Source of the DNA: a virus
Reading direction: 5' to 3' (one strand)
Virus record (IMG/VR): IMGVR_UViG_3300048065_000294
Span: 1 to 27,030 of that record
DNA: 27,030 bases
The translations under genes and the position numbers were made by a program. This document shows positions 107 to 27,030 of the stretch, in pieces. A model generated the notes under the pieces. That model was given only the letters and a program-made list of their open reading frames with translations, searched no databases and was not told where the DNA came from. Positions within the stretch are counted from its first letter, which is position 1. The number at the start of each line of letters is the position of its first letter.

Positions 107-541
107 CTAAGCTCCGTATGTCTTTATATCATCGGGGTCGATGATTGTTGCAATGACCTCATCGTCATTGATGATACGAACCTCGCCGCCTTCGATGTTG
201 AAGCGAGATCCAGCGTAGCGACCAATACATACCCAATCGCCTTCCTTGCACCACGGCTCGGCACCGGGTCCAAACTTGTCTGGGTCTTGATATGCTAGGG
301 GTCCAAGTTTCACGACATACGCTACGGTTGTCGCTCGGCTTTCTTTCTCACGAGTAGCGTCCGGGATGAAAATGCCGCTATTCGTTTTCTCCTTACCCAT
401 GTAAGGCATAACAAGAAGCCGCCAACCTGTGGGCTGCGGTACTCGTTCTGCGATGGATTTGGATTTTGCTTGTTCGGCTGCTTTCTTAGCTGCCTCGCGT
501 TGTGCGATAATGTAATCAGGTACTATCAGAGTCTTCGTCAT
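107..541 (-). CDS. GroES-like co-chaperonin (Cpn10)
   Basis: The 144-residue product resembles Cpn10/GroES, the lid of the GroEL folding chamber. Residues 36-140 follow the family order: a first strand (WRLLVMPY), a mobile-loop-like stretch at about 51-66 containing SGIFIP, which takes the place of the IVL tripeptide that docks on GroEL, then VVKLG, a GDWVCIG strand and a closing EVIATI strand. An N-terminal extension of about 35 residues, rich in Ala and Lys, is extra to ordinary GroES. I place the start at the internal ATG at 541 because AAGGCGA lies upstream of it; a longer reading from 574 is possible. No GroEL gene is visible, so it probably works with the host chaperonin, most likely to fold capsid proteins as T4 gp31 does. 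Confidence 0.8.
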   Translation of the reverse strand: MTKTLIVPDYIIAQREAAKKAAEQAKSKSIAERVPQPTGWRLLVMPYMGKEKTNSGIFIPDATREKESRATTVAYVVKLGPLAYQDPDKFGPGAEPWCKEGDWVCIGRYAGSRFNIEGGEVRIINDDEVIATIIDPDDIKTYGA

Positions 542-725
542 AGTTCGCCTTTTGTAGCAGGGTTTGGAGTTCATCTAATGCATAGGTGAGTCCCTGAATC
601 TCACCTACAGATGCGCGGTAGCTTTCCATGTTTGGAACGCCGCCGCTCGTTACAGAGACACTAATGTCTTCTATACGATTATTCAAGGCCCTTCTATATC
701 TCGATACAAAATTTACGATGTCCAT
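516..725 (-). CDS. small conserved phage protein of unknown function
   Basis: This 69-residue protein is mostly helical by eye, with amphipathic segments at both ends around a short Ser/Gly/Val linker (SVTSGGVPN), and an acidic C-terminal tail. Its outline (NF.SRYRRAL..RIEDI, then YR..VGEIQGL) looks like short proteins I associate with structural operons of many tailed phages, but I cannot name a family. It overlaps the start of the co-chaperonin gene by 26 bases and follows the Cys-rich gene with a 3-base gap, so it is translated as part of the late operon. A connector or assembly role is possible; the sequence does not show it. Confidence 0.7.
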   Translation of the reverse strand: MDIVNFVSRYRRALNNRIEDISVSVTSGGVPNMESYRASVGEIQGLTYALDELQTLLQKANYDEDSDST

Positions 726-12463: not shown

Positions 12464-12583
12464 CGCAGGTCGCAGGTCGCAGACTCACGCAATAAAGCCC
12501 GCAGCCCACCCAGCCAAGGCGCAGGCGCGCAAGGCGCAGCACAATCCCTTCATCGATCCCACATACAAGGACGCAGGTCGCAG
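12464..12583. repeat. CGCAGGTCGCAG direct repeats downstream of GP88
   Basis: The 12-mer CGCAGGTCGCAG occurs at 12464-12475, where it continues as a third CGCAG unit to 12482, and at 12572-12583. A further copy at 11644-11655 lies upstream of the GP88 promoter, so copies flank the GP88 unit. Confidence 0.6.
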
Positions 12584-12904
12584 ATCCTCGATCCTCGAAC
12601 CTTGGATTTCCAGCACTTTACCGCCGTCAAATAAAAATACATCGCCGGTCAAGGGGTCGTGGAGCAAGAAAAAAGAAACGCCGTTGCAACGGTTATGCGC
12701 CAAATGCCACGCGATTTGAGACTTATTAACCGAAACTCGGTTACTTTTTATTATTTTCAACTCCAGCCAGACAGGCACACCATCCAAGCACAGATAAACG
12801 TCAGGCATGCCCTCGCCAGCGCGGTTCTCAATCCTCTGGTGATGTGTCCTTTTCGGTAAACTCTGCTTCAATAACGTCCACAGGCTTTTCTCTGTCTTTG
12901 GCAT
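12485..12904 (-). CDS. VRR-NUC/Holliday-resolvase-like nuclease
   Basis: The product has 139 residues from the ATG at 12904, which has AAGGG upstream. It shows the PD-(D/E)XK arrangement of VRR-NUC nucleases: E26, then GEGMPD35 on the first strand, then VWLE48-L-K50 on the next, and a later helix with SQIAWHLAH that often carries the supporting Gln. Such enzymes cut branched or structured DNA; in phages they resolve replication intermediates before packaging. It overlaps the terminase small-subunit candidate by 77 bases. The last 35 residues are low-complexity and coded by the CGCAGGTCGCAG repeat region, so the gene may have gained a new 3' end there. Confidence 0.8.
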   Translation of the reverse strand: MPKTEKSLWTLLKQSLPKRTHHQRIENRAGEGMPDVYLCLDGVPVWLELKIIKSNRVSVNKSQIAWHLAHNRCNGVSFFLLHDPLTGDVFLFDGGKVLEIQGSRIEDLRPASLYVGSMKGLCCALRACALAGWAAGFIA

Positions 12905-13394
12905 CTTCAACCCTTTTCATATCATCAAAGGCAGCCGGATACTGCTTGCGGATAGCAGCCAGCCTAGCAGTGATTTCATCGCGGCTTAGTTTATCTAGCT
13001 GGTGAATGTGGTTGGCCTCGCGGCGGTCGATTGTCAGGCCACCAAGGGCAGACCGGATCTTTTCCGCATTGATGGCAGCAGAAAACTGACCAGCCTCCTC
13101 CGCGCTGCGTGACAGTTCATCCAGCCGCTTTAGCTGACCAGTCAGGCTGATCGAGTACCGGCGTTCTCTGGCCTCGCGTAGTTCTTTTATCAGGGCAACA
13201 CAGTCAGGGAAATCACGACCGTTCAGCAGCTTCGAAGCTTGGACGTTCGCGCTGTCTTCCGAATAGCCCGCCTTCCTCGCACACTCCGCATTAGAATAGA
13301 CGCCCTCGACAATATATTTGGCAAACTCACGCTGCCTGTTAGTCAGTCCAGCAGGCCTGCCGCCCTTGCTTTTTACAGTGTTTTCTTTTTCCAT
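12828..13394 (-). CDS. terS: terminase small subunit (probable)
   Basis: The 188-residue protein has a helix-turn-helix N-terminus (LTNRQREFAKYIVEGVYSNAECARKAGYSEDSANVQASKLL, residues 17-57, quoted here only by its two halves NAECARKAGYS and ANVQASKLL). A central helical region for oligomerisation (62-118) and an acidic C-terminal tail follow. This is the usual outline of Terminase_2-type small subunits, which bind the packaging site and hand DNA to the large subunit. It is paired with a nuclease rather than with the large terminase. The ATG is preceded by GGTGAG, and that site lies inside one arm of a 17-bp inverted repeat. A general DNA-binding regulator is the alternative. Confidence 0.75.
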   Translation of the reverse strand: MEKENTVKSKGGRPAGLTNRQREFAKYIVEGVYSNAECARKAGYSEDSANVQASKLLNGRDFPDCVALIKELREARERRYSISLTGQLKRLDELSRSAEEAGQFSAAINAEKIRSALGGLTIDRREANHIHQLDKLSRDEITARLAAIRKQYPAAFDDMKRVEDAKDREKPVDVIEAEFTEKDTSPED

Positions 13395-13603: not shown

Positions 13604-13747
13604 ACTATAGGCCAAATTAGTCTCAAAAACTGCACTTTTTAATCCGAGTCTTTTTTTATCTTTTTTTATACAAAAACATTTGACCATCAATTAAATCCGT
13701 GCAACAGTCCCTTATAAGATAACTGACTATAGCATAGGAGCAAAGAT

Positions 13748-13915
13748 ATGCAACAGCACCGAGGTTCGAGGTCGGAGGTTCAAGAGCCGATCACTATTGG
13801 TTTACGCAAGCCGACACTAGGTGCGCGGATCTTGCACCTGAGTATCAACAATCGTGCTTGGTTGAAGGCTGCGATGTCTAAGCGAATTGCTTATGGGGGT
13901 AAGAAGAATGGATAA
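13748..13915 (+). CDS. 55-residue basic protein, first of the mini-gene operon
   Basis: An ATG at 13748 with TAGGAG seven bases upstream opens a 55-codon frame. The product is basic (Arg and Lys spread along it), has a Pro/Thr/Gly centre (PITIGLRKPTLGARI) and a helical end. No family is recognised. Its 5' part is coded by the dispersed word GAGGTTCGAGGTCGGAGGTT. It is the leader of the rightward mini-gene series and overlaps the next gene by 8 bases, which supports it being translated. Confidence 0.6.
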   Translation: MQQHRGSRSEVQEPITIGLRKPTLGARILHLSINNRAWLKAAMSKRIAYGGKKNG

Positions 13916-14099
13916 GTTTATCGAAGCTGAAGATGTTTTGTTTCGGCAGGTTTACGATGAGTTGTGTTCTAACCCGCCGCGTCCGCCAGTTAGTGCGGGC
14001 ATTGAAGATCAATATGATTATCAGGATTGGTTAGATTTCGAGGCTTTGCGTATTACAAACGAGCGGCTTGAAGCGGCAAATAAAATGGGGGCGGAGTAA
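13908..14099 (+). CDS. 63-residue acidic protein, unknown
   Basis: The ATG at 13908 overlaps the stop of the previous gene, with purine-rich GGGGGTAAGAAGA upstream. The 63-residue product is acidic and helical, with a Pro-rich hinge (NPPRPPVSAG) and a YDYQDWLDFEAL helix. No motif of known function is visible. Coupling on both sides (its TAA overlaps the next ATG) supports a real gene. Confidence 0.6.
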   Translation: MDKFIEAEDVLFRQVYDELCSNPPRPPVSAGIEDQYDYQDWLDFEALRITNERLEAANKMGAE

Positions 14100-14296
14100 T
14101 GTATCACGAGGATTTTGCAGATTATGTGGTGGGCGATGACAATCGTTTGCTGGATGTGAATGTTGAATGTCAGTTGGCATATCGTGCGCTGCGCGATGCT
14201 GAGTGGGATGGGATGGATACGACTGCGTTGGAGCGGCGGTATCGTTCATTGACTGACAAGCTTTTGATGGGGGTGACTTATGAGCCACGTTTCTGA
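14099..14296 (+). CDS. 65-residue acidic helical protein, unknown
   Basis: Translation starts at the ATG overlapping the previous stop, with GGCGGAG upstream. The 65 residues are rich in Asp, Glu and Arg and look helical (LAYRALRDAEWDG, then LERRYRSLTDKLL). No family is recognised. The 3' end overlaps the next gene by 17 bases. Confidence 0.6.
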   Translation: MYHEDFADYVVGDDNRLLDVNVECQLAYRALRDAEWDGMDTTALERRYRSLTDKLLMGVTYEPRF

Positions 14297-14489
14297 TTAC
14301 AGGTTCGAGAACCACGGTTCGATATTTTTGTGCCAGCCGTTGAATGCCGATGCCAAAGACAATCTGGATCAGGCTTGTGAAGGCACAGAGGATTTTCATA
14401 TTCGTTGGGGTGATGCGTTGGTCATTGACCATCGGTTTGCCAATGACATTGCGTTGCAGTTAAGAGATGAAGGGTGGGTAATAGAATGA
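14280..14489 (+). CDS. conserved short phage/plasmid protein (FENHGSI type)
   Basis: The 69-residue product has the outline of a widespread short mobile-element protein of unknown role: YRFENHGSIFLCQPL, a helix with ADAKDNLDQ, then WGDALVIDHRFANDIALQL and a final GWVIE strand. By eye this is a small alpha/beta fold. GGGGGTGA precedes the ATG. It overlaps genes on both sides. Because this type is common on phages and plasmids, a role in element-host interaction is plausible, but none is established that I know of. Confidence 0.7.
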   Translation: MSHVSDYRFENHGSIFLCQPLNADAKDNLDQACEGTEDFHIRWGDALVIDHRFANDIALQLRDEGWVIE

Positions 14490-14701
14490 AGATGTATGAT
14501 GTTGAGGTTGAGGCGGTGATCCGGAAAAAGATCCTTGTCACGGCGGAGTCCAGCGAAGAGGCAGAAGAGATGGCTCATAATCTTTTTAATGTGGACGCGG
14601 ATGGTTCTCCGGAGCGGTATGACCAACAGACCAAAACGATCAGGGTGGTGTGTGACGAGGATCGTCCTGAAAAGCCAGCTTGGGAAAAGGGGGATAAGTG
14701 A
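14486..14701 (+). CDS. DpnD/PcfM-like small protein
   Basis: I take the ATG at 14486, which overlaps the preceding TGA and has AGGGTGGG upstream. The 71-residue product opens with a strand-strand-helix unit (YDVEVEAVIRKKILVTAESSEEAEEMAHNLF) typical of DpnD/PcfM-type C-terminal domains, in which V.A.S.EEA leads the helix; the quoted unit is best described by its key part TAESSEEAEEMA. The rest is polar with a charged tail. The gene at 17250 encodes a second protein with the same unit. Function of this fold in phages is unknown. Confidence 0.65.
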   Translation: MKMYDVEVEAVIRKKILVTAESSEEAEEMAHNLFNVDADGSPERYDQQTKTIRVVCDEDRPEKPAWEKGDK

Positions 14702-15108
14702 TGAGTATTGATGCAGAAGTTCAAATGGGTTGCGCGGGTATGCCGACAATTCATCTGGTGTACGCACCAACGAAGGAAGAGTGGTTCGAGATTGCCGAAT
14801 GCATTTGGATTGGTGCGCTCGAGGGTGGCAGCAACCACTGGATCGAGTACGTCCACACTGGTGACAACGATCTGAAGTCTGGTAAGGAAATTGTCGAAAA
14901 GAATTTCGAGATCATTATGCACGTTGATGACGGTGAGCCGCAGCCCACACGTTGGTACAGGAATTCTTTTGATGTGATTGTCGATGGCATTGCATTGCTT
15001 GACGACCATCGCAGGGGCTTGGTGTTCAGCGACCTTGGTCAACTGGATGCCTATGATTATGACCTGATCATTCAACTAGGTACATTTGGTAAGGAGGTAT
15101 TTTGCTGA
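14701..15108 (+). CDS. conserved phage protein of 135 residues, unknown
   Basis: The ATG at 14701 overlaps the previous TGA and follows AAGGGGG. The product is mixed alpha/beta, with a WIGALEGGSNHWIEYVH centre, RWY, and an end resembling a signature I associate with many phage and plasmid proteins (FSDLGQLDAYDYDLIIQLGTFG, that is, a helix around D-x-D leading to a hydrophobic QLGTFGKEV). The pairing of a GG.NYW-like motif with such a C-terminus is common in mobile-element proteins of unknown function. This is the largest product of the mini-gene series. Confidence 0.7.
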   Translation: MSIDAEVQMGCAGMPTIHLVYAPTKEEWFEIAECIWIGALEGGSNHWIEYVHTGDNDLKSGKEIVEKNFEIIMHVDDGEPQPTRWYRNSFDVIVDGIALLDDHRRGLVFSDLGQLDAYDYDLIIQLGTFGKEVFC

Positions 15109-15437
15109 TGAAATATTATGTTGGAAACATAGACGAGCAGTATGGTGAGTTCGAGGTTGAGCAAACCATCTTGTTCGCAACCGCCGGTGATCCTGATAAA
15201 TTGATGGAAGAGATTGCCAAAGATTGGTATGGGCTAGATCACCACGACTCAGACGGTTTGCGGGAAGGTATGTACTGGAATGATGGTATGGCCTATGGGG
15301 CTGGTTATCACTACGAGGTGACCAAGGCCACCTATGATGAACTGAAAGACAAACGTGTCTTTACTGAGTTGTTTGCTGATGATGAACGCAAGTGGGACAG
15401 AACCCCCAAGGCTTTTGAGGAGGGCAGTGATGACTGA
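15108..15437 (+). CDS. 109-residue conserved phage-type protein, unknown
   Basis: A full AAGGAGGT lies nine bases before the ATG at 15108; the nearer TTG at 15102 is too close to that site. The acidic product starts with a strand (MKYYVGNI), followed by a VEQTILFATAG strand, a helix KLMEEIAKDWYG, and an aromatic, glycine-rich centre (MYWNDGMAYGAGYHYEVTK). Such small proteins occur on plasmids and phages without assigned function. It overlaps its neighbours by one and eight bases. Confidence 0.65.
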   Translation: MKYYVGNIDEQYGEFEVEQTILFATAGDPDKLMEEIAKDWYGLDHHDSDGLREGMYWNDGMAYGAGYHYEVTKATYDELKDKRVFTELFADDERKWDRTPKAFEEGSDD

Positions 15438-15573
15438 AGATGAGTTGTTCCGGCAAATCCGGATACTGGTCGCTGGCACTGATGTCACCTACAAACAGGT
15501 GGACAGTGATCTGGATGAAGAGGGTGACGTGACTATTTTCTTTTCTAACTTGGAGATAAAAAACGATGAGTAA
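15430..15573 (+). CDS. 47-residue acidic protein, unknown
   Basis: Taking the ATG at 15430, with GAGGAGGG upstream, gives a 47-residue product: an N-terminal helix (EDELFRQIRILVAG) and then two strands with acidic residues between them. Longer readings from further upstream would overlap the previous gene deeply and lack a ribosome site. Nothing is recognised. A highly acidic miniature protein may act as a DNA mimic, but that is conjecture. Confidence 0.55.
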   Translation: MTEDELFRQIRILVAGTDVTYKQVDSDLDEEGDVTIFFSNLEIKNDE

Positions 15574-15844
15574 TTTACCAGAAGGTTTTAACGGTTGGAC
15601 GTTGGATCAGAAGTCGAAGTATTGGGACAAGCAGCGTGATAAGGATCGTGCGTGTCGCCAGAAGGGCATCGACAAACTGTCGCAAGAGCAGCGCGATGCG
15701 GTGAAGGAAGCCTATGATGCAATCTCTACTGCAATGCAAAGCCTGCATGAATGTCAGGATTTGTGGATGTCTGATGTAAAAAATCTGGATGACAGCATGT
15801 GGCAGCTACGCCGTCAGTTTAATCTGGGGGGTAAAGATGACTGA
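15566..15844 (+). CDS. 92-residue helical protein, unknown
   Basis: TGGAGAT lies upstream of the ATG. The product is almost entirely helical and charged: a Trp/Lys-rich start (GWTLDQKSKYWDKQRDKDR), then LSQEQRDAVKEAYDAISTAMQ and a third helix with DDSMWQLRRQF, probably a three-helix bundle or coiled coil. No family is recognised. It overlaps the preceding gene by 8 and the next by 8 bases. Confidence 0.6.
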   Translation: MSNLPEGFNGWTLDQKSKYWDKQRDKDRACRQKGIDKLSQEQRDAVKEAYDAISTAMQSLHECQDLWMSDVKNLDDSMWQLRRQFNLGGKDD

Positions 15845-15980
15845 TCAAGAAGAGCCTTGGTGCGTCTGTGTGTACTGTCAAATCACCTACCATGTAGACG
15901 CAGACACAGATGGTGGTGACTGCCCTGACTGCGGTGAGTGGCACGGTGTTATACATGCAGGGGGCTGGTATGACGATTAA
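15837..15980 (+). CDS. 47-residue zinc-ribbon mini-protein
   Basis: The ATG at 15837 overlaps the previous stop region and gives 47 residues. CVYC (residues 11-14) and CPDC (29-32), each able to supply two ligands, sit on either side of a short beta hairpin, a minimal zinc ribbon; Cys9 is extra. The remainder is acidic with Trp and His near the end. Such ribbons bind DNA, RNA or proteins. It lies directly before a second zinc-ribbon gene, and no more specific role can be read from it. Confidence 0.6.
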   Translation: MTDQEEPWCVCVYCQITYHVDADTDGGDCPDCGEWHGVIHAGGWYDD

Positions 15981-16185
15981 ATGTGGTCACAAGTCCAGTC
16001 AGGTTTTGGACAGCAGACTAAAACACACACCCTATCTGGGCTGGCATAAGCATAGGCGCAGGCAGTGTGATGATTGTGGTGCTAAGTTTTCGACCAAAGA
16101 GGTCAGGTCTAATTTGTATGATCAACTGAAGAAAAACCAGCGGTGCGCTTTAACCAGCACCGCCGCCGATAGGAGGGCAAGATGA
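15970..16185 (+). CDS. NrdR-like zinc-ribbon protein (short)
   Basis: The product has 71 residues from the ATG at 15970. It resembles the N-terminal zinc ribbon of NrdR, the ribonucleotide reductase repressor: KCGHKSSQVLDSR, then HRRRQCDDCGAKFSTKEV. The first CxxC is reduced to a Cys and a His, while the second (C33, C36) is intact. The ATP-cone domain of NrdR is absent, so nucleotide sensing is not expected. Stand-alone ribbons of this type are found in phages. Possible roles are regulation of dNTP supply genes or simple nucleic acid binding. Confidence 0.65.
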   Translation: MTIKCGHKSSQVLDSRLKHTPYLGWHKHRRRQCDDCGAKFSTKEVRSNLYDQLKKNQRCALTSTAADRRAR

Positions 16186-16415
16186 CTAAATCATTTGTGT
16201 TAACCGCACTAAACACACATTCCTTTAAGCCGGAAGGCCAGATGTTTTTCACTGGCACATCATTCACAGTGTACAGTCAGGTGCGTAGGATCGGGAACAT
16301 CGAGCGTGAGGTCACGCGGATTCATGATGGTCACCACAACAACGGTGGCTGGTGGGTCGAAGGTTCGGTGTCCGAGGTCATGGAAACAATTATGAGGGGG
16401 CAAGACAATGGGTAA
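16182..16415 (+). CDS. 77-residue beta-rich protein, unknown
   Basis: AGGAGGG precedes the ATG at a short spacing. The product is predicted by eye to be mostly strands: FVLTALNTHSF, MFFTGTSFTVYSQVRRI, EREVTRIHDG, with a central HHNNGGWWVEG motif before a short helix. No membrane segment or cysteine is present. The family is not recognised. It overlaps the previous gene by 4 and the next by 8 bases. Confidence 0.6.
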   Translation: MTKSFVLTALNTHSFKPEGQMFFTGTSFTVYSQVRRIGNIEREVTRIHDGHHNNGGWWVEGSVSEVMETIMRGQDNG

Positions 16416-18668: not shown

Positions 18669-18700
18669 CGGTGTACAAGTAGGGGCTTGACTTACACCGT
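18668..18700 (+). promoter_or_regulatory. bulged hairpin directly upstream of the helicase ribosome site
   Basis: ACGGTGTA plus CAAG (18668-18679) pairs with CTTG plus TACACCGT (18686-18700) around loop TAGGGG, with a three-base bulge ACT. The GGAGG of the helicase gene starts at the next base, 18701. It could tune translation or protect a processed RNA end. Confidence 0.5.
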
Positions 18701-20567: not shown

Positions 20568-20708
20568 ATGAATCTAAAGAAATGGAAATCAATCGCAGTC
20601 ACCATCGATGTGTACGATATCTTAAAGCGTATCGCCGATGAAAACGAGCGTAGTGTGAGTCGCCAGTTGGCTCATATGCTCAAAGCTATTGACGAAGAAA
20701 AGCGATAG
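20568..20708 (+). CDS. ribbon-helix-helix mini-protein, likely regulator
   Basis: An ATG at 20568, with GGGAG upstream, opens a 46-residue frame. The sequence fits the Arc/MetJ-type ribbon-helix-helix: a strand (KSIAVTID, 7-14), helix one (VYDILKRIADEN), a turn and helix two (SVSRQLAHMLKAID). Such proteins dimerise, insert the strand in the major groove and often repress their own promoter. The flanking 17-base repeats, one covering the -35 hexamer, are natural operator candidates. It is the first gene of the replication module. Confidence 0.75.
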   Translation: MNLKKWKSIAVTIDVYDILKRIADENERSVSRQLAHMLKAIDEEKR

Positions 20709-20723
20709 CTGCTACTTGACTAC

Positions 20724-20749
20724 CTCGTGTCTGCTGGTGTAGACACGAG
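20724..20749 (+). terminator. hairpin after the ribbon-helix-helix gene, attenuator candidate
   Basis: CTCGTGTCT (20724-20732) pairs perfectly with AGACACGAG (20741-20749) around an 8-base loop. Only three T follow, so it is a weak terminator at most; partial termination or RNA stabilisation before the 188-residue gene is more likely. Confidence 0.45.
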
Positions 20750-20795
20750 TTTCACACCCGAAGGGGTTAAACTTTGTACCGAAAAGGAGAATGGT

Positions 20796-21362
20796 ATGAG
20801 CGATGTGTTTTCGCTATTTGAAGAAGGAACAGTCGATGCTGATAAGTTCGACACTGTTGAGAAGGAAGGTGCTTCGCGCCTATCCAACCTCATTCGTCAG
20901 TCACTTGACCTCGATAAACAAATTGCCGATGCAGAGCAATTCGTCAAGGATCTGAAATTCAAAAAAAGAAAAGTGAACGAAGAAGATATTCCTATGCTCA
21001 TGGAAGAGATGGGCGTGGATAGTCTTACTGTCGATGGGCATAAGGTTAGTGTCGCTAACTTTGTTCACGCAAGGATATCCGATGACAAGAAGGCGGAAGC
21101 GTTTGCTTACCTGCGTTCCATCGGTGAGGCGGACATCATCAAGAATGATGTGACCGTATCGTTCTCGTCAGGGCAAGACAACATGGCTGGTTCGGTGGTC
21201 GAAGACCTACGCAATCAGGGTTTTGATCCTGCTCAGAAAACTCACATCCATCCGGGGACACTGAAGGCTTGGGTCAAGAATCGCATTGAATCAGGTAAAG
21301 ACCTCGACTTTGAAACCTTCGGCGTTTTTGTCGGAACAGAAGCTAAAATCAAACGGAGCTAG
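20796..21362 (+). CDS. conserved 188-residue protein of the replication module, unknown
   Basis: I place the start at 20796, where AAGGAGA lies five bases upstream; the frame is open further back to 20727. After an acidic N-terminus (1-25) comes a coiled-coil-like stretch (about 30-60, LDKQIADAEQFVKDLKFKKRK), then a beta-rich middle (SLTVDGHKVSVANFVHARIS) and an alpha/beta C-terminal half with HPGTLKAWVKNRIESG. I recognise the overall pattern from phage genomes next to SSB-like genes, but not a named function. The charged coiled coil and the context suggest a replication or recombination accessory factor. Confidence 0.7.
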   Translation: MSDVFSLFEEGTVDADKFDTVEKEGASRLSNLIRQSLDLDKQIADAEQFVKDLKFKKRKVNEEDIPMLMEEMGVDSLTVDGHKVSVANFVHARISDDKKAEAFAYLRSIGEADIIKNDVTVSFSSGQDNMAGSVVEDLRNQGFDPAQKTHIHPGTLKAWVKNRIESGKDLDFETFGVFVGTEAKIKRS

Positions 21363-21364
21363 AC

Positions 21365-22168
21365 ATGGCTGATACAGCAATCGAAACAAAGAATACCAAC
21401 ACACTTCCCGCAACTCTTATGGCTGACTTCTCTGATCACGCCGGTGCTGGCATGGATGCCATCGGCACAGAAGATATGCAGATCCCATTCCTGCGTATCT
21501 TACAGCCGCTGTCACCGCAGCTAAACAAGAACGATGCATCACACATCAAAGGTGCGTCATCAGGTGACCTGTTCAATACAGTGACTGGTCAGTTCTGGGA
21601 AGGCGAGTCAGGGGTGTACGTTATCCCATGCGGGTACACCGTTAAGTACCTCGAGTTCCAGCTACGCATCAACGGTGGTGGCTTTGCTGGTGAGCTTGAT
21701 CCAAACGATCCAGACCTGAAGCGCACTACACGCGAAGGTGCATCTGAGGTTCTGCCGTCAGGTAACGAAGTTATCCGTTCAGCGCAGCATCTTGTTATGA
21801 TCGTTGATCCAAAGACAGGCATGACCCAGTCAGCTATCTGTGACATGAAGAAGACCCAGTTGAAGGTGTCTCGTAAGTGGAATACACAGATGCGTATGGT
21901 TCAGTACCAAGGTCCGAAGGGTATGTTCAACCCACCTATGTGGGGTACTATCTGGAAGCTGACCACGGTTCAAGAATCGAATGACCAAGGTTCGTGGAAC
22001 AACTACGCAGTTGAGCGCATCGAGCCAACCGAGGTTCCACAAGAAGCGTTCCTTGCAGCTAAGTCTTTCTTCGAGTCCTTCTCGAAGGGTGAGATCAAGA
22101 CTGCCGCAGGCACAACAGATGAGCAGGCTGCGCCGAAGCAGGCTGCACCGGAAGACGTTCCTTTCTAG
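21365..22168 (+). CDS. probable single-stranded DNA-binding protein
   Basis: The 267-residue product is beta-rich in its centre, with many aromatic and basic residues (VYVIPCGYTVKYLEFQLR, QLKVSRKWNTQMRM, GTIWKLTTVQ). It ends in an acidic tail closed by EDVPF, close to the DDIPF tip with which bacterial SSB proteins recruit partners. Gene order (before primase, helicase and polymerase) fits an SSB. The OB fold is not provable by eye, and a different ssDNA-associated protein is possible. ACGGAG precedes the ATG; a 2-base gap separates it from the upstream gene. Confidence 0.7.
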   Translation: MADTAIETKNTNTLPATLMADFSDHAGAGMDAIGTEDMQIPFLRILQPLSPQLNKNDASHIKGASSGDLFNTVTGQFWEGESGVYVIPCGYTVKYLEFQLRINGGGFAGELDPNDPDLKRTTREGASEVLPSGNEVIRSAQHLVMIVDPKTGMTQSAICDMKKTQLKVSRKWNTQMRMVQYQGPKGMFNPPMWGTIWKLTTVQESNDQGSWNNYAVERIEPTEVPQEAFLAAKSFFESFSKGEIKTAAGTTDEQAAPKQAAPEDVPF

Positions 22169-22318
22169 GCGGGGGAGTTCCTAACGCTGCCGGGGGGCAG
22201 CGGTCAAGATTGATTCGGCCCCGCCCGTGAACAAGTACTCAGGCCTATTGAGATCCAGTAGGTTTTGTTCTAGGACACCGATCAATCATCCCCCCATACT
22301 TTTACTTAGGAGCAGTAA
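22168..22318 (+). other. structured intergenic region between SSB-like and primase genes
   Basis: This 150-base gap holds a 7-bp hairpin with GGGG loop (22185-22202) nested inside a longer pairing of GGCGGGG (22168-22174) with CCCCGCC (22219-22225). No T-run follows. The primase ribosome site TAGGAG (22308-22313) lies near the end. Confidence 0.5.
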
Positions 22319-23848
22319 ATGTCAGCAACAGAAAAATTTATGGCAGCCTTCGAAGGTTTTGGTCAGGCTCATGGTCAGACACAGATCTCTGAAGAGCGCC
22401 GCGAGGGTAAGCAGAAGGCCAAGTCCTTCATCGTGCGTAAGCCTTTAACACTAGAACTTATCAACGGCCACCTGTCGGGCAGGAACGGCGTGGGTTCTAT
22501 CCCTATCAACGAAGATAACAAGTGCAGGTTCGGTGCGCTGGACATTGACCAGTACCCGCTTGATCTGGTTGCACTCGACAAGAAGGTCCGCGACATGGGC
22601 ATCAAGTCTATTGTGTGCCGGTCGAAGTCGGGCGGAGCGCATGTATTCTTTTTCTTTACGGAGTGGATCAGTGCCGGAGATTTTAAAGACAAAGCTGCCG
22701 AAGTATCTGCCGCACTTGGTTATGGCGGCTGTGAAGTGTTCCCAAAGCAAGAACAGGTTCTTGTCGAGCGTGGTGATGTCGGTAATTTTATTAACCTGCC
22801 GTATTTTGATGCAGAGCAAACAATGCGACCAGCCATTAAAGAAGACGGAGACGATGCCACATTAGAAGAGTTCCTCGACCTGATCGAAGAACGCCGCATC
22901 ACACCTAACGAGTTCTTGTCGCTGAAGCTTGGTGGTACATCAGACCAGTTCAAAGGTTGGCCGCCCTGCCTCAAGACGATGCTCGAGCAAGGTATCCCCG
23001 AAGGTGGGCGTAATACAACTATGTTTGCTGTGGCTGTGGCCTGCAAGCGCGTGGATCCAGACAACTGGAAATCCTTGCATGAGCAGATCAACATGAACTA
23101 CTGCCAGCCACCGCTAGGCGCATCAGAGATCGTCCAGATTCAGCAGCAGCTAGAGCGGAAGGAATATTTCTATCCGTGTGATCAGCAGCCGCTGGCCTCG
23201 TTCTGTAACAAGACACTGTGCCGCCGCCAGAAGTACGGCATTGGCAAGGAAGTTGTCGAGGCTGATATCAGTGGTCTGTCTGTTGTGTTATCTGAGCCGC
23301 GTGTATGGTTCTGTGATATCAACGGTCGGCGTCTGGAACTAAGCACCGAGGAGCTACAGCTTCCGATGAAGTTCCAACGCGCCTGTATGGAGCATCTTCA
23401 GTACATGCCCCCGACTATGAAGAACGCTGACTGGCAGCTAGTGGTTAACGGTCTGATGGAGAACGTCAACGAGATCGAAGTACCGGAAGAGCTAACCTAT
23501 CGCGGGCAGTTCCTCGATCACTTGGAAAGCTTCTGCACTGGTCGTGTGCAAGCACAGTCTGCGGAAGAACTGGTTCTTGGTAAGCCATACACAGAAGAAG
23601 GCCGCACATTCTTCAAGCTGGACTCACTGATGAACTATCTTCAGAACAAGAAGTTTGCCGAGTACAACCGTGGTCAGATTCAAGAGCGCTTGAAAGAACT
23701 GAACGGTGCGGAAGACGCGCATGGTATTAAGAGGTTCAAGACAAACAAGGGTGAATCTAAAGTGGTTCGTGTTTGGTGGGTGCCTGAGTATAGTTCCGAG
23801 GTTCAAGTACCGGATGCCTATGTCCAGACCAATGAGGTTCCGTTCTAA
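22319..23848 (+). CDS. archaeo-eukaryotic-type primase (AEP, TOTE-like)
   Basis: The 509-residue protein shows the AEP signature: FGALDID with catalytic Asp75 and Asp77, SKSGGAHVFFF with His108, a third motif near VFPKQ (141-144) and the following GNFINLPYF typical of TOTE-type primases. It would make primers, perhaps long ones, for the phage polymerase. The remainder (about 170-509) contains a Cys-bearing segment FCNKTLCRRQKYG (near 290-305) and helical regions of unknown role. It ends in TNEVPF, like the SSB-like protein. No TOPRIM primase or DnaB-type helicase is visible, so priming seems to rest on this protein. Its TAA overlaps the next ATG. Confidence 0.85.
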   Translation: MSATEKFMAAFEGFGQAHGQTQISEERREGKQKAKSFIVRKPLTLELINGHLSGRNGVGSIPINEDNKCRFGALDIDQYPLDLVALDKKVRDMGIKSIVCRSKSGGAHVFFFFTEWISAGDFKDKAAEVSAALGYGGCEVFPKQEQVLVERGDVGNFINLPYFDAEQTMRPAIKEDGDDATLEEFLDLIEERRITPNEFLSLKLGGTSDQFKGWPPCLKTMLEQGIPEGGRNTTMFAVAVACKRVDPDNWKSLHEQINMNYCQPPLGASEIVQIQQQLERKEYFYPCDQQPLASFCNKTLCRRQKYGIGKEVVEADISGLSVVLSEPRVWFCDINGRRLELSTEELQLPMKFQRACMEHLQYMPPTMKNADWQLVVNGLMENVNEIEVPEELTYRGQFLDHLESFCTGRVQAQSAEELVLGKPYTEEGRTFFKLDSLMNYLQNKKFAEYNRGQIQERLKELNGAEDAHGIKRFKTNKGESKVVRVWWVPEYSSEVQVPDAYVQTNEVPF

Positions 23849-25359
23849 TGGAAACAACAATCTTTGGGCCGCCGGGGACAGGCAAGACAACCAAGCTGAT
23901 TTCGATTGTCGAGCAGGCGTTGGAGTCTGGTATGCCGCCGGATCGCATAGCCTTTGTTTCTTTCAGTCGTAAGGCAGCGGAAGAAGCCCGTGACCGCGCA
24001 CTGGAGAAGCTAAACATAGGCACCGGAGATTTAGAATGGTTCCGCACTCTACACTCACTGGCCTTTCAGTGCCTTGGTCTCAGCCGTAAGCAGGTCATGC
24101 ATAAGCTGGACTATGAAAAGCTGGGTGATTATGTGGGCATGGATCTATCACCTCGTGGATCTATTGATGATGCTGGCACCTTCATCCCTTCGGCAACGAT
24201 TGGGGACAGGTACTTAAACATCGCCGCCTTCGCTCGTTCTATGAAGATCAGTCTCGAGCAAGCCTTTGATATCAAGGGCGATGACAATATGTATTTTCAG
24301 CAGCTCCGGATTATCAACAACGCCCTCTATTCGTACAAGAAAGGCAACGACAAGCTGGACTTTACTGACATGATCGAGCAGTTCAACCTCCAGCGTATGT
24401 CGCCTGAGTTTGATTTGCTGATTGTTGACGAAGCCCAAGACCTTGTGCCGCTGCAATGGCAGATGGTGAAAGAGGTCCTAGTTCCGAGGTCGAAGAAGGT
24501 ATATTACGCGGGCGATGATGATCAGTGCATTTACGCTTGGATGGGTGTTAAGGTCAGGGATTTCTTGATGGCCTCAGACGAGAAGATAATCCTCGATAAA
24601 TCGTACCGTGTACCAAACCAGATCCACAAGGTAGCCAACAACCTTGTCAAGCGATTAGGTGTGCGCCAAGAAAAAAACTGGGTTCCTGCCGAAAGAGACG
24701 GGAAAGTAACTTGGCATCGTGATATACTTGATGTGGACCTAACCACTGGCGAATGGTTGATACTTGCTAGAACGAACCACATTGCAAATATGGTTGCTAG
24801 AAAACTTTACGACCAAGGATACCTTTACTGGTTCCAAGGCCGTGGTTGGTCCATCTCCCCAAGTGTTTTATCTGGTATCGAGGTGTGGCTAAGACTATGC
24901 AAAGGACAGTATCTTTCAGCAGCAGAACTAAAAACCTTTTCGAAGATCCTTTCAGAAAAGGCAGCAACCCCAGTTCAGCGAAGAACTTTAGAAACTTTAG
25001 ACCCAGAGCATACATACGGCCTAGACGAAGTCCTCCAGCAGTTAAGCTCGAGCATAACACCCCAAACCCCGTGGCACGAAGTGATCAAGGTGAGCGACAG
25101 GGAACTCATCTACATTTCATCAGTACGCCGTATGGGCGAGTCTATTTTGACGGGGAAGCCGAGGATACGGATCTCAACGATCCATAAAGCCAAGGGTGGC
25201 GAAGCCGACAATGTTGCCTTGCTACTAGACTCTTCTCGTGCATGCACAGAATCTGACGATCAGGACTCCGAGACTCGGACGTTCTACGTTGGGATAACTC
25301 GCGCTCGTAATGAGCTTCACATTATTGAATCACAAAACAGATATGGATTTCAGCTATGA
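23848..25359 (+). CDS. UvrD/Rep-like superfamily 1 DNA helicase
   Basis: The 503-residue protein has all main SF1A motifs: Walker A GPPGTGKTT (7-15), motif Ia FVSFSRKAA (36-44), Ib TLHSLAF (67-73), II VDEAQD (193-198), III GDDDQCIYAW (222-231), V STIHKAKGGEADNV (443-456) and VI YVGITRAR (480-487). It is shorter than bacterial UvrD (about 720), lacking parts of the 1B and 2B insertions. Proteins of this class unwind DNA 3' to 5'. As the only processive-type helicase beside primase and polymerase, it may act at the fork. Translation is coupled to the primase gene. Confidence 0.92.
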   Translation: METTIFGPPGTGKTTKLISIVEQALESGMPPDRIAFVSFSRKAAEEARDRALEKLNIGTGDLEWFRTLHSLAFQCLGLSRKQVMHKLDYEKLGDYVGMDLSPRGSIDDAGTFIPSATIGDRYLNIAAFARSMKISLEQAFDIKGDDNMYFQQLRIINNALYSYKKGNDKLDFTDMIEQFNLQRMSPEFDLLIVDEAQDLVPLQWQMVKEVLVPRSKKVYYAGDDDQCIYAWMGVKVRDFLMASDEKIILDKSYRVPNQIHKVANNLVKRLGVRQEKNWVPAERDGKVTWHRDILDVDLTTGEWLILARTNHIANMVARKLYDQGYLYWFQGRGWSISPSVLSGIEVWLRLCKGQYLSAAELKTFSKILSEKAATPVQRRTLETLDPEHTYGLDEVLQQLSSSITPQTPWHEVIKVSDRELIYISSVRRMGESILTGKPRIRISTIHKAKGGEADNVALLLDSSRACTESDDQDSETRTFYVGITRARNELHIIESQNRYGFQL

Positions 25360-25634
25360 AAAGAGCAGACATTTTAGACACAGCCAAGGGCTATGTAACT
25401 CAGGATCGAGCAGCGCAGCACGGCAACATGGAGGATAACTTCACGAACATCGAGACTGTTTGGTACTGGTGGGATAGCATCAAGCCGGATGATCTGCCCC
25501 CGGGGGCAGACTGCGCTGTTAAGATGACGCTGCTCAAGATCGCCCGCATTGCATCCAACCCACAACACGCCGACAACTGGGTTGACGGTTGCGGCTACAT
25601 GGCATGCGGCGGTGAGGTATCTACCAATGAGTGA
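25356..25634 (+). CDS. DUF6378-type phage protein
   Basis: The 92-residue product follows the DUF6378 pattern: RAAQHGNMEDNFTNIETVW, then the acidic turn DLPPGADCAVKMTLLKIARI and the end NPQHADNWVDGCGYMACGGE. These small helical proteins are common in phages of Gram-negative bacteria and have no firm function that I know. The regular H, N, D and E positions suggest a nucleotide- or metal-binding helical fold of the MazG type, which is conjecture. The ATG lies inside the last codons of the helicase gene, and the end overlaps the next gene by 8 bases. Confidence 0.75.
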   Translation: MKRADILDTAKGYVTQDRAAQHGNMEDNFTNIETVWYWWDSIKPDDLPPGADCAVKMTLLKIARIASNPQHADNWVDGCGYMACGGEVSTNE

Positions 25635-25911
25635 TGAGGTTAATGTCGTGCGGCTAGTGGGGTTTGATGACGCCATCATAGGTATGGCAGCGCGTAAGGG
25701 GCAGGATGATGTTCTGGCCTATGACGTACAAAAGATGATCAACATCCTGATGAACGACAATGAGTGGGATGAAGACGAAGCAATCGAATACTTCTACTAC
25801 AATATCTACGATGCTTGGATGGGTGATGGCACACCTGTGTTAATTACCGTCAACAACAAAGTTATTGAGGATTATATTAATGACCAAAACGCATCAGTAC
25901 AGCTTCATTGA
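25627..25911 (+). CDS. 94-residue conserved phage-type protein, unknown
   Basis: I place the start at the ATG at 25627, which overlaps the stop of the DUF6378 gene; a longer reading from 25549 lies inside that gene. The product has a short strand start (NVVRLVGFDDAIIGMAAR), then a helix DVQKMINILMNDN and the pattern DEDEAIEYFYYNIYDAWMGDGTPV, seen in small phage and archaeal-virus-like proteins, where W-x-G-x-GTP closes a helical domain. No activity is known to me. It lies directly before the polymerase, whose ATG is 31 bases inside it. Confidence 0.7.
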   Translation: MSDEVNVVRLVGFDDAIIGMAARKGQDDVLAYDVQKMINILMNDNEWDEDEAIEYFYYNIYDAWMGDGTPVLITVNNKVIEDYINDQNASVQLH

Positions 25912-27030
25912 AGATCCCAGAAACAGAGATGAGTTCCCAGTTATGCGCCATAGTACAGACATCCAAGACCAAGAAGAGATAAAGCAGCAAGCTGCTAGTC
26001 CCCTACCACAAGACTGGCAACCACCTTCGCAGCTTCCAGATCTGACTGGATATGAGCGCATTGCTGTTGACTTGGAAACTCGTGATCCAAACCTGATGAC
26101 ACTCGGACCGGGGTGGGTTCGCAAGGACGGATACATCATCGGCATAGCTGTGGCTGCCGGGGGTAGCTCTTGGTACTTCCCAATTAAGCACGAAGGCGGC
26201 GGCAACATGCCTCGTACTGCGGTGATGGGTTGGTTTAAGAAGCAGATGCAAACCCCTAATATTGAAAAGATTTTTCACAATGCGATGTACGATCTGGGCT
26301 GGCTTCGGGCAGAAGGGATCGAGGTCCAAGGACGGATAATCGACACGATGATTGCCGCGCCGCTGCTGGACGAGAACCGCCGGTACTACAATCTTAACTC
26401 ACTGGCAGGCGAGTGGCTGGGTGAATACAAGAACGAGAAGCTGCTGAAGCAGGCAGCACAGTTCTTTGGTGTGGATCCGAAGGGTGGCATGTGGCGTTTA
26501 CCATCTACCTTTGTTGGTGCATACGCCGAACAGGACGCGGCTGTTACCCTGCGCTTGTGGGATCGGCTGCGTACCGAGATTCAGAAGGACGAAGTTTCGA
26601 GCATCTTCGACCTTGAAACTAGCTTGCTGCCCTGCCTGCTTGAGATGAAAACAAAGGGTGTGCGGGTAGACACAGACGCTGCTGAACGTGCGCGGAAGCT
26701 ATTGCAGTCACGCGAGGTGCAGTTACTTAAAGAAATAAAGGAAGACACTGGCGTCAGTATCGAGCCGTGGGTTGCTACATCTATTGCAAAGGCGTTCGAT
26801 GCCCTTGGGCTTGAATACCATCGGACAGAAAGCTCGGGTGCGCCGTCCTTTACAAAGCAGTTTCTGTCTAACCACCCGCATCCAGTGGCGCAGAAGATCG
26901 TAAAGCTTCGTGAGTTTAACAAAGCCAACACTACGTTTATCGAAACAATTCTTGAGCATTCTCATAACGGTCGTATCCATTGTGACTTTAACCCCTTGCG
27001 GTCTGATGATGGTGGTACTGTAACGGGGCG
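25880..27030 (+). CDS. polA: family A DNA polymerase with 3'-5' exonuclease domain (partial)
   Basis: The frame starts at ATG 25880, with TGAGGA eight bases upstream, and runs off the window after 383 codons. The exonuclease domain is intact by eye: ExoI AVDLETRD (Asp64, Glu66), ExoII FHNAMYDLGW (Asp138), ExoIII YAEQDAAVTL (Tyr215, Asp219). A helical linker follows, and the visible part ends at the GTVTGR segment just before polymerase motif A. The 5'-3' exonuclease domain of bacterial PolI is absent, as in T7-like phage polymerases. It would replicate the phage genome with the upstream primase and helicase. The catalytic palm lies outside the window. Confidence 0.93.
   Translation, partial: MTKTHQYSFIEDPRNRDEFPVMRHSTDIQDQEEIKQQAASPLPQDWQPPSQLPDLTGYERIAVDLETRDPNLMTLGPGWVRKDGYIIGIAVAAGGSSWYFPIKHEGGGNMPRTAVMGWFKKQMQTPNIEKIFHNAMYDLGWLRAEGIEVQGRIIDTMIAAPLLDENRRYYNLNSLAGEWLGEYKNEKLLKQAAQFFGVDPKGGMWRLPSTFVGAYAEQDAAVTLRLWDRLRTEIQKDEVSSIFDLETSLLPCLLEMKTKGVRVDTDAAERARKLLQSREVQLLKEIKEDTGVSIEPWVATSIAKAFDALGLEYHRTESSGAPSFTKQFLSNHPHPVAQKIVKLREFNKANTTFIETILEHSHNGRIHCDFNPLRSDDGGTVTG

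Follow-up and report, generated by a model that had tools for sequence, protein, structure and literature searches.

Matching C-terminal tails on a probable single-strand DNA-binding protein and an archaeo-eukaryotic primase in a conserved phage replication module in which no ring-shaped helicase was recognised

The window analysed here is the linear 27 kb IMG/VR viral record IMGVR_UViG_3300048065_000294 (27,030 nucleotides), probably a fragment of a larger viral genome, which carries a set of seven replication genes on its plus strand from position 18687. The set includes a probable single-strand DNA-binding protein (SSB) of the Pam3_Gp34 family (gp34), a primase of the archaeo-eukaryotic (AEP) type, a UvrD-like helicase of superfamily 1A (SF1A) and a family A DNA polymerase (PolA). 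The reading that is favoured, with a probability of roughly 0.5, is that these proteins form a phage replisome free of a ring helicase in which gp34 and the primase share one docking site. As part of this reading, the module would be that of a large phage family, comprising podo- and siphophages, whose members encode no ring-shaped replicative helicase of their own. We infer the biochemical roles, the polarity and the tail receptor in this replisome as follows. In this scheme gp34 would coat single-stranded DNA, the primase would make primers and PolA would extend them, while the SF1A motor, moving 3'-to-5' as its family does, would open the fork or at least assist. The tails of gp34 and the primase would bind by turns to one pocket, probably on a phage-encoded protein, for instance PolA or a helicase, with the primase taking over the docking site occupied by the SSB. 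What is new is the paired and co-varying tails; the gene set itself is a widespread and known combination, not singled out in the literature passages at hand.

In the window gp34 ends in ...EDVPF and the primase in ...NEVPF, both acidic tips of the SSB type that finish in PF; the bacterial SSB tip is DDDIPF, according to the available passages of PMC5872125. Among homologues with a complete 3' end, 89 of 101 gp34 proteins and 95 of 108 primases end in PF, and both residues of the gp34 tip are invariant in 41/41 sequences (A3). The ending was not seen on other products of the module (SF1A 0/99, PolA 0/65, DUF7307 0/90 and SNF2-like 0/70). When 4629 complete open reading frames (ORFs) of at least 100 amino acids were inspected, 212 ended in PF and just 11 of these encoded proteins other than gp34 and the primase. 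One family, from phages of the Acinetobacter/enterobacterial type, accounts for five of the 11, and its member from Acinetobacter phage Barton matches a PHROG that bears the name single strand DNA binding protein. These small SSB-like proteins are encoded beside PolA, have the tip DDDIPF or DDDLPF (L018:30725-31048, L027:18979-19338, L028:19950-20276 and two more) and are present in 5/5 records of this type, in which the PF ending is absent from both gp34 and the primase.

The tip types of gp34 and the primase tend to match within a genome, several lineages excepted. The last two residues are the same in 99 of 120 loci, against a shuffled mean of 77.9 that never rose to the observed value (0/20000 shuffles). 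For loci below 70% primase identity the match is 39/55 against 25.3, again reached in 0/20000, and for loci below 40% identity it is on average 5.3/12 against 1.25; here the shuffles attained the observed match in a mean fraction of 0.002, the worst of 200 samplings giving 0.095. Joint departures from PF have also been observed: both proteins end in IV in Pelagibacter phage HTVC027P, in II in a SAR11 cell contig (L141) and in PY in other SAR11 contigs. The same comparison between primase and SF1A tails gave 0/118 matches. The matching tails suggest that gp34 and the primase dock on one shared partner. No report of an SSB-type tail on an AEP primase was found in a literature search from which subscription journals were mostly absent, and the papers that pair DDDIPF with primase appear to concern SSB partners, DnaG or inhibitors.

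Two side observations concern these tails. In one record (L016, ct3Et533) the primase ORF (14688-16214) and the gp34-like ORF (13686-14594) run one residue beyond PF (PPFV and IPFA, respectively), and part of the gp34-like stretch is annotated there, probably wrongly, as a minus-strand hypothetical gene. Three large AEP-domain proteins of 782-927 amino acids from bacterial contigs (L139, L142 and L152) also end in DEDIPF or DEDLPF, and thus the SSB-type tip on AEP proteins may be older than the module seen in the window.

The initial annotation had described gp34 as SSB-like. The SSB-type tip agrees with this description and the OB-like look of the model hints at it; no SSB-family match was found for gp34 in Pfam or PHROGs, and no PDB sequence match. 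The AlphaFold2 model (pLDDT 84.9) is beta-rich, and its weak structural matches include the phiC31 recombination directionality factor (Z 8.1), the BRCA2 OB domain (Z 6.6) and the T4/RB69 gp32 core (Z 6.2). RPA and SSBs rank below gp32 in the match list, much of which is filled by OB proteins. The predicted OB-like fold is no more than suggestive of an SSB, and the C-terminal tip is the stronger evidence for this role.

Judged from their sequences, the primase and the helicase look catalytically active. The primase residues D75, D77, H108 and E139 are invariant in 18/18 diverse and 54/54 closer sequences, and the dead catalytic sites that the initial annotation had raised as a possibility in relatives were not what was found. 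For the primase catalytic motifs we take the names DxD, sxH and third acidic motif, the last of which would, from its position, be E139. Four cysteines, C217, C287, C296 and C301, are invariant in the same two sets. The model of the primase (pLDDT 86.3) consists of a CAPP-like catalytic core (residues ~1-204), a helical, Cys-containing region (~205-301), a winged-helix-like part (390-492) and a tail of low confidence. The core aligns with the structure of the CRISPR-associated prim-pol CAPP over 189 residues (Z 21.1, root-mean-square deviation 3.0), and CAPP is also the only clear PDB family by sequence. The assignment as an AEP with TOTE-type motifs was borne out by the domain match (Table 1). 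Matches of residues 390-492 to winged-helix proteins have Z <7 and may reflect merely a common arrangement. A domain search found no TPR, RT or fused helicase domain in the window primase, and a PriL C-terminal domain is not among its listed fold matches, a list that is not exhaustive. A PriL-type iron-sulphur cluster was considered for the primase and is not supported by these matches despite the four invariant cysteines. As for the helicase, the SF1 motifs are kept in 52/52 sequences (T484 is S in 4), and the nearest solved structures and the nearest families are PcrA, UvrD and Rep. From this kinship the protein is taken as a member of the SF1A class, and it scores below the NCBIfam equivalog cut-offs for PcrA (89.6/911.2 bits), Rep (80.4/951.45) and UvrD (73.3/1144.45).

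The module is conserved, with a gene order far beyond chance. A primase search of IMG/VR gave 15 loci and a profile of 18 sequences gave at least 80 more, for a total of at least 95. Counting only loci with enough flanking sequence for the gene in question, and among the IMG/VR matches listed, the SF1A gene lies 3' of the primase in 74/74 loci and gp34 upstream of it in 71/71. PolA is downstream in all 33 loci with at least 6.5 kb on that side, DUF7307 is present in all 71 with at least 1.8 kb upstream, and the SNF2-like gene in all 45 with at least 5 kb upstream of the primase. The SNF2-like gene is on the primase strand in 21 of the 45 loci and divergent in 24, and it is distant from the primase in some records. 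The order of SSB-like protein, AEP primase, SF1A helicase and PolA described in the initial annotation is confirmed by the ORFs and domain matches of the window and recurs, as had been proposed for checking, in these metagenomic contigs. The genes that it listed are real, but the set was incomplete: the SNF2-like, DUF7307 and DUF6378 genes had been missed.

Among annotated phages, tblastn gave 25 records with a primase match, 14 of which were examined. A full-length primase is present in 13 of the 14, and 12 of these 13 are labelled complete. All 13 have gp34 and SF1A, and 12 have PolA; the stretch of the remaining record, R26L, stops before any PolA. The sources of these records are phages of Pelagibacter, Dinoroseobacter, Pseudanabaena, Acinetobacter, Salmonella and Providencia as well as uncultured phages. 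The arrangement is common, and its individual genes already carry annotations in phages of Pelagibacter, Roseobacter, cyanobacteria and Acinetobacter. In the available passages of PMC9599517 and PMC10611076, primase, helicase and PolA are named among the shared or annotated genes of such phages and the fork is not discussed. A literature search for an archaeo-eukaryotic primase with a helicase and TOTE in a phage found no paper; the bifunctional prim-pols described in passages of PMC10149686 and PMC11288001 are from other phages and are not relevant to the family in the window.

The initial annotation had seen neither a TOPRIM primase nor a DnaB/gp4-type helicase, and the searches agree. The families searched for were PF00772 (in the window only), PF03796, phrog_19, PF13481, PF13155 and PF19263; VirE and MCM families were not included. 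In the window there was no match to DnaB (PF00772, PF03796 and phrog_19) or Toprim_2. Elsewhere, PF03796 (DnaB_C) and phrog_19 matched in 0/13 named phage records with a full-length primase, phrog_19 in 0/50 of the largest related IMG/VR contigs, and PF03796 in 0/15 large IMG/VR contigs in a search in which the T7 positive control was found at E 6.8e-20. Toprim_2 (PF13155) matched in 0/23 records, with 14 cellular genomes as the control. AAA_25 (PF13481) gave nothing above the cut-off and sub-threshold matches in 10/23 records, several of which lie on the P-loop of the SF1 gene and others on other ATPases. DUF5906 (PF19263) gave two sub-threshold matches among 24 records (Pan1 and R26L), and T7 gave nothing, as expected. 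A DnaB-like gene (E 1e-13) was seen in MW202803, a record with only a distant partial primase relative (29% of the query matched), whose examined stretch has no SF1A, gp34 or PolA match, which indicates that the search is able to detect one. The recognisable ATPases in an annotation-independent Walker A scan of ORFs of at least 150 amino acids in three complete records were SF1A in all three, SNF2-like and TerL in two each and thymidylate kinase in one; other P-loops were in structural or unrelated ORFs. A ring helicase hidden elsewhere was rejected on the profile searches of the window, the records with a full-length primase and the related contigs, which gave no match above threshold. The case from sequence searches for the absence of a ring helicase is strong, short of proof.

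Several observations weigh against a ring-helicase-free replisome with a shared docking site. The fork role of SF1A is one that we infer, and opening of the fork by host DnaB is the main rival to it. The structural matches of gp34 are weak, with Z no higher than 8.1 and a Foldseek E of 0.086 for the best hit. Shuffling of tails does not fully correct for shared ancestry, and deduplicated pairs in the non-PF/PF comparison match in just 5/21 (expected 1.4; reached in 321/50000 shuffles). No tail match is seen in Nanhaivirus (0/3), HTVC023P, PSA28 or PMBT28. The examined stretches of HTVC023P-type records yielded no SNF2-like gene, and both the window and the IMG/VR contigs are fragmentary. The suggestion in the initial annotation that the fork is of a different kind stands in part: neither a DnaB- or gp4-like gene nor an inactive primase turned up in the relatives with a full-length primase, but the UvrD-like enzyme is no more than a candidate for the fork helicase, and other phages share the arrangement.

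If host DnaB opens the fork, the contribution of the phage would be its own primase, SSB and polymerase. The SF1A and SNF2-like enzymes would serve as accessory motors, like T4 Dda and UvsW, in recombination, restart or the clearing of obstacles. The tails would then recruit host proteins that interact with SSB, such as PriA, Pol III chi and DnaG. Most of the phage tails resemble the host SSB tip, and passages of PMC5872125 state that the DDDIPF tip of E. coli SSB binds DnaG, chi, PriA and ExoI, which is counted for this explanation. It is also favoured by the recombination roles assigned to UvrD/SNF2-type helicases in jumbo phages (passages of PMC7824862) and by the five Acinetobacter/enterobacterial records with the extra small DDDIPF/DDDLPF protein beside PolA. 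However, the link of SF1A to the primase in every locus with room is stricter than would be expected for an optional accessory, and no phage helicase loader was recognised, although none was specifically searched for. The comparison with host tips also argues against host DnaB. The host SSB ends in DDDIPF or DDEIPF in all four SAR11 genomes, single-cell or assembled, that come with phage contigs of this kind, whereas the phage tails in these cells have changed: they have moved together to PY/PY in two genomes and read VPY (gp34) with DAF (primase) in a third, and in the phage contig of the fourth gp34 was not found. The joint shift in two cases under a constant host tip favours a phage-encoded receptor, in a small sample in which a sorted phage contig may be foreign to the cell. 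Fork opening by host DnaB is a serious candidate that is considered to fall short of probable.

The proposal of a replisome free of a ring helicase can be carried further. There would be no ring helicase of any origin at the fork; the 3'-to-5' SF1A motor would act on the leading-strand template, the identical tails of a gp32-like SSB and of the AEP primase would compete for a co-evolving phage pocket, and release of the SSB and loading of the primase would be one exchange step. In this full form the proposal is speculative and rather unlikely.

It is improbable that the SNF2-like SF2 enzyme rather than SF1A is the fork motor, or that replication is primed by recombination without a dedicated fork helicase. 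The SNF2-like gene does occur in every IMG/VR locus with room for it, but its orientation is divergent in more than half of them, some records have it at a distance from the primase, and SNF2 enzymes are usually translocases on double-stranded DNA. A repair or defence-type prim-pol in place of a replicative primase is very improbable: the closest solved structure is CAPP and the Pfam domain takes its name from TOTE conflict systems, in which an AEP lies in a conflict-system locus with companion domains, but the AEP locus of the window is a phage replication module, all loci with room place the AEP within such a module, a search of 23 records gave no Toprim_2 primase, and the score of 46.2 bits is far under the cut-off of 200 for the CAPP type A1 equivalog (NF040561).

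Two groups of annotated phages share the module. Pelagibacter phages HTVC023P and HTVC027P, Dinoroseobacter phage R5C, Pseudanabaena phage Pan1 (Nanhaivirus) and phage DSL-LC04 are like the window in gp33, gp34, AEP primase, SF1A and PolA where the stretch reaches, and their genes are annotated singly as primase, helicase and DNA polymerase. They differ in the primase, which is 21-40% identical to that of the window, and in the tails (IV/IV in HTVC027P; a primase without PF in R5C and Pan1). Acinetobacter phage Barton/DMU1, Salmonella phage PMBT28, Pseudomonas phage PSA28 and Providencia phage Kokobel2 share AEP primase, SNF2-like protein, gp34, SF1A and PolA and have no DnaB, but their genes are scattered over ~10 kb. 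Their primase ends in SEF or AEF, and the DDDIPF/DDDLPF tip is on the extra SSB-like protein. In three records of this group (Acinetobacter, Salmonella and Pseudomonas) an adenylosuccinate synthetase-like gene adjoins PolA.

Among better known replisomes, that of T7 resembles the window in its family A polymerase and the acidic C-terminal tail on its priming protein, and T7 gp2.5 carries a similar acidic tail. T7 differs in that Toprim priming is fused to a ring helicase, whereas the window encodes an AEP primase and a monomer-type SF1A helicase in separate genes. Passages of PMC12593628 describe how gp4 binds the family A polymerase gp5 through acidic C-terminal tails, and the T7 replisome is the nearest working analogy for tail docking, with unrelated priming and unwinding enzymes. 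An AEP-type primase is paired with an SF1 helicase in the UL5/UL52 proteins of herpes simplex virus 1 (passages of PMC12695949), but UL5 belongs to SF1B, moves 5'-to-3' and works within a heterotrimer that includes UL8, while the helicase of the window is UvrD-like and SF1A. The AEP catalytic core is also common to CAPP and to AEP-DUF5906 fusion primases. Fusions of AEP-TOTE, PriCT_1 and DUF5906, the last of which we take to be an SF3-type helicase domain, are present in two of the loci (L139 and L145); the window primase differs in its winged-helix-like C-terminal part and in having a separate SF1A helicase gene.

Table 1. Features of the replication module in the window, with the matches that identify them
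Feature	Position	Strand	Match or remark
SNF2-like SF2 helicase/translocase, 493 aa	18687..20168	+	PF00176 72.1 bits, PF00271 48.4 bits, phrog_62 E 5.9e-110
DUF7307 / Pam3 gp33-like protein	20727..21362	+	PF23984 E 6e-26; GTG start, later start possible
Pam3_Gp34 family protein (gp34), probable single-strand DNA-binding protein	21365..22168	+	PF23977 E 1.7e-63
gp34 C-terminal tip EDVPF, then stop	22151..22165	+	
AEP primase, 509 aa	22319..23848	+	PF22548 AEP-TOTE 58.4 bits (cut-off 27); phrog_21866 'primase' E 1e-86
Primase C-terminal tip EVPF, then stop	23834..23845	+	
UvrD/PcrA/Rep-like SF1A helicase, 503 aa	23848..25359	+	PF00580 87.7 bits (cut-off 23), PF13361 52.7 bits
DUF6378 small protein	25356..25634	+	PF19905 E 2.5e-22; between helicase and PolA in many relatives
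Family A DNA polymerase (PolA): exonuclease domain and start of polymerase domain	25943..27028	+	PF01612 E 2.9e-18, PF00476 E 3.3e-6, phrog_17 E 1.9e-49

The primase stop and the SF1A helicase start overlap by one base. The PolA gene is truncated at the end of the window and its start codon is uncertain; the best NCBIfam match of this incomplete gene is DpoZ (NF038380), an aminoadenine-incorporating polymerase, at 176.4 bits against a cut-off of 500. No adenylosuccinate synthetase-like gene was recognised in the ORF list of the window. Of 67 PolA relatives, 36 have DYSxQEPR or a similar sequence as polymerase motif A, 2 have DWSQIEYR and 29 fit neither pattern. On the minus strand are genes for large terminase, portal, small terminase, holin and a GroES-like protein, a content that fits a tailed phage. 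The GroES-like co-chaperonin gene (107-574, minus strand; phrog_3188, E 1.4e-16) has a counterpart in HTVC023P. A small protein encoded at 12485-12910 on the minus strand matches phrog_2165, labelled DNA helicase (E 3.2e-20), and its family is annotated as VRR-NUC in the record of one relative, a link made by homology; the product is probably a nuclease rather than a helicase.

To our knowledge, almost every double-stranded DNA phage that has been studied well has a hexameric ring helicase of its own or borrows one. With a widespread group that combines an AEP primase with an SF1A helicase and has no recognisable ring helicase, it can now be tested whether a motor of the monomer type is able to drive the fork of a phage. 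The paired tails of gp34 and the primase offer a concrete and easily mutated handle on the coupling of priming and strand coating.

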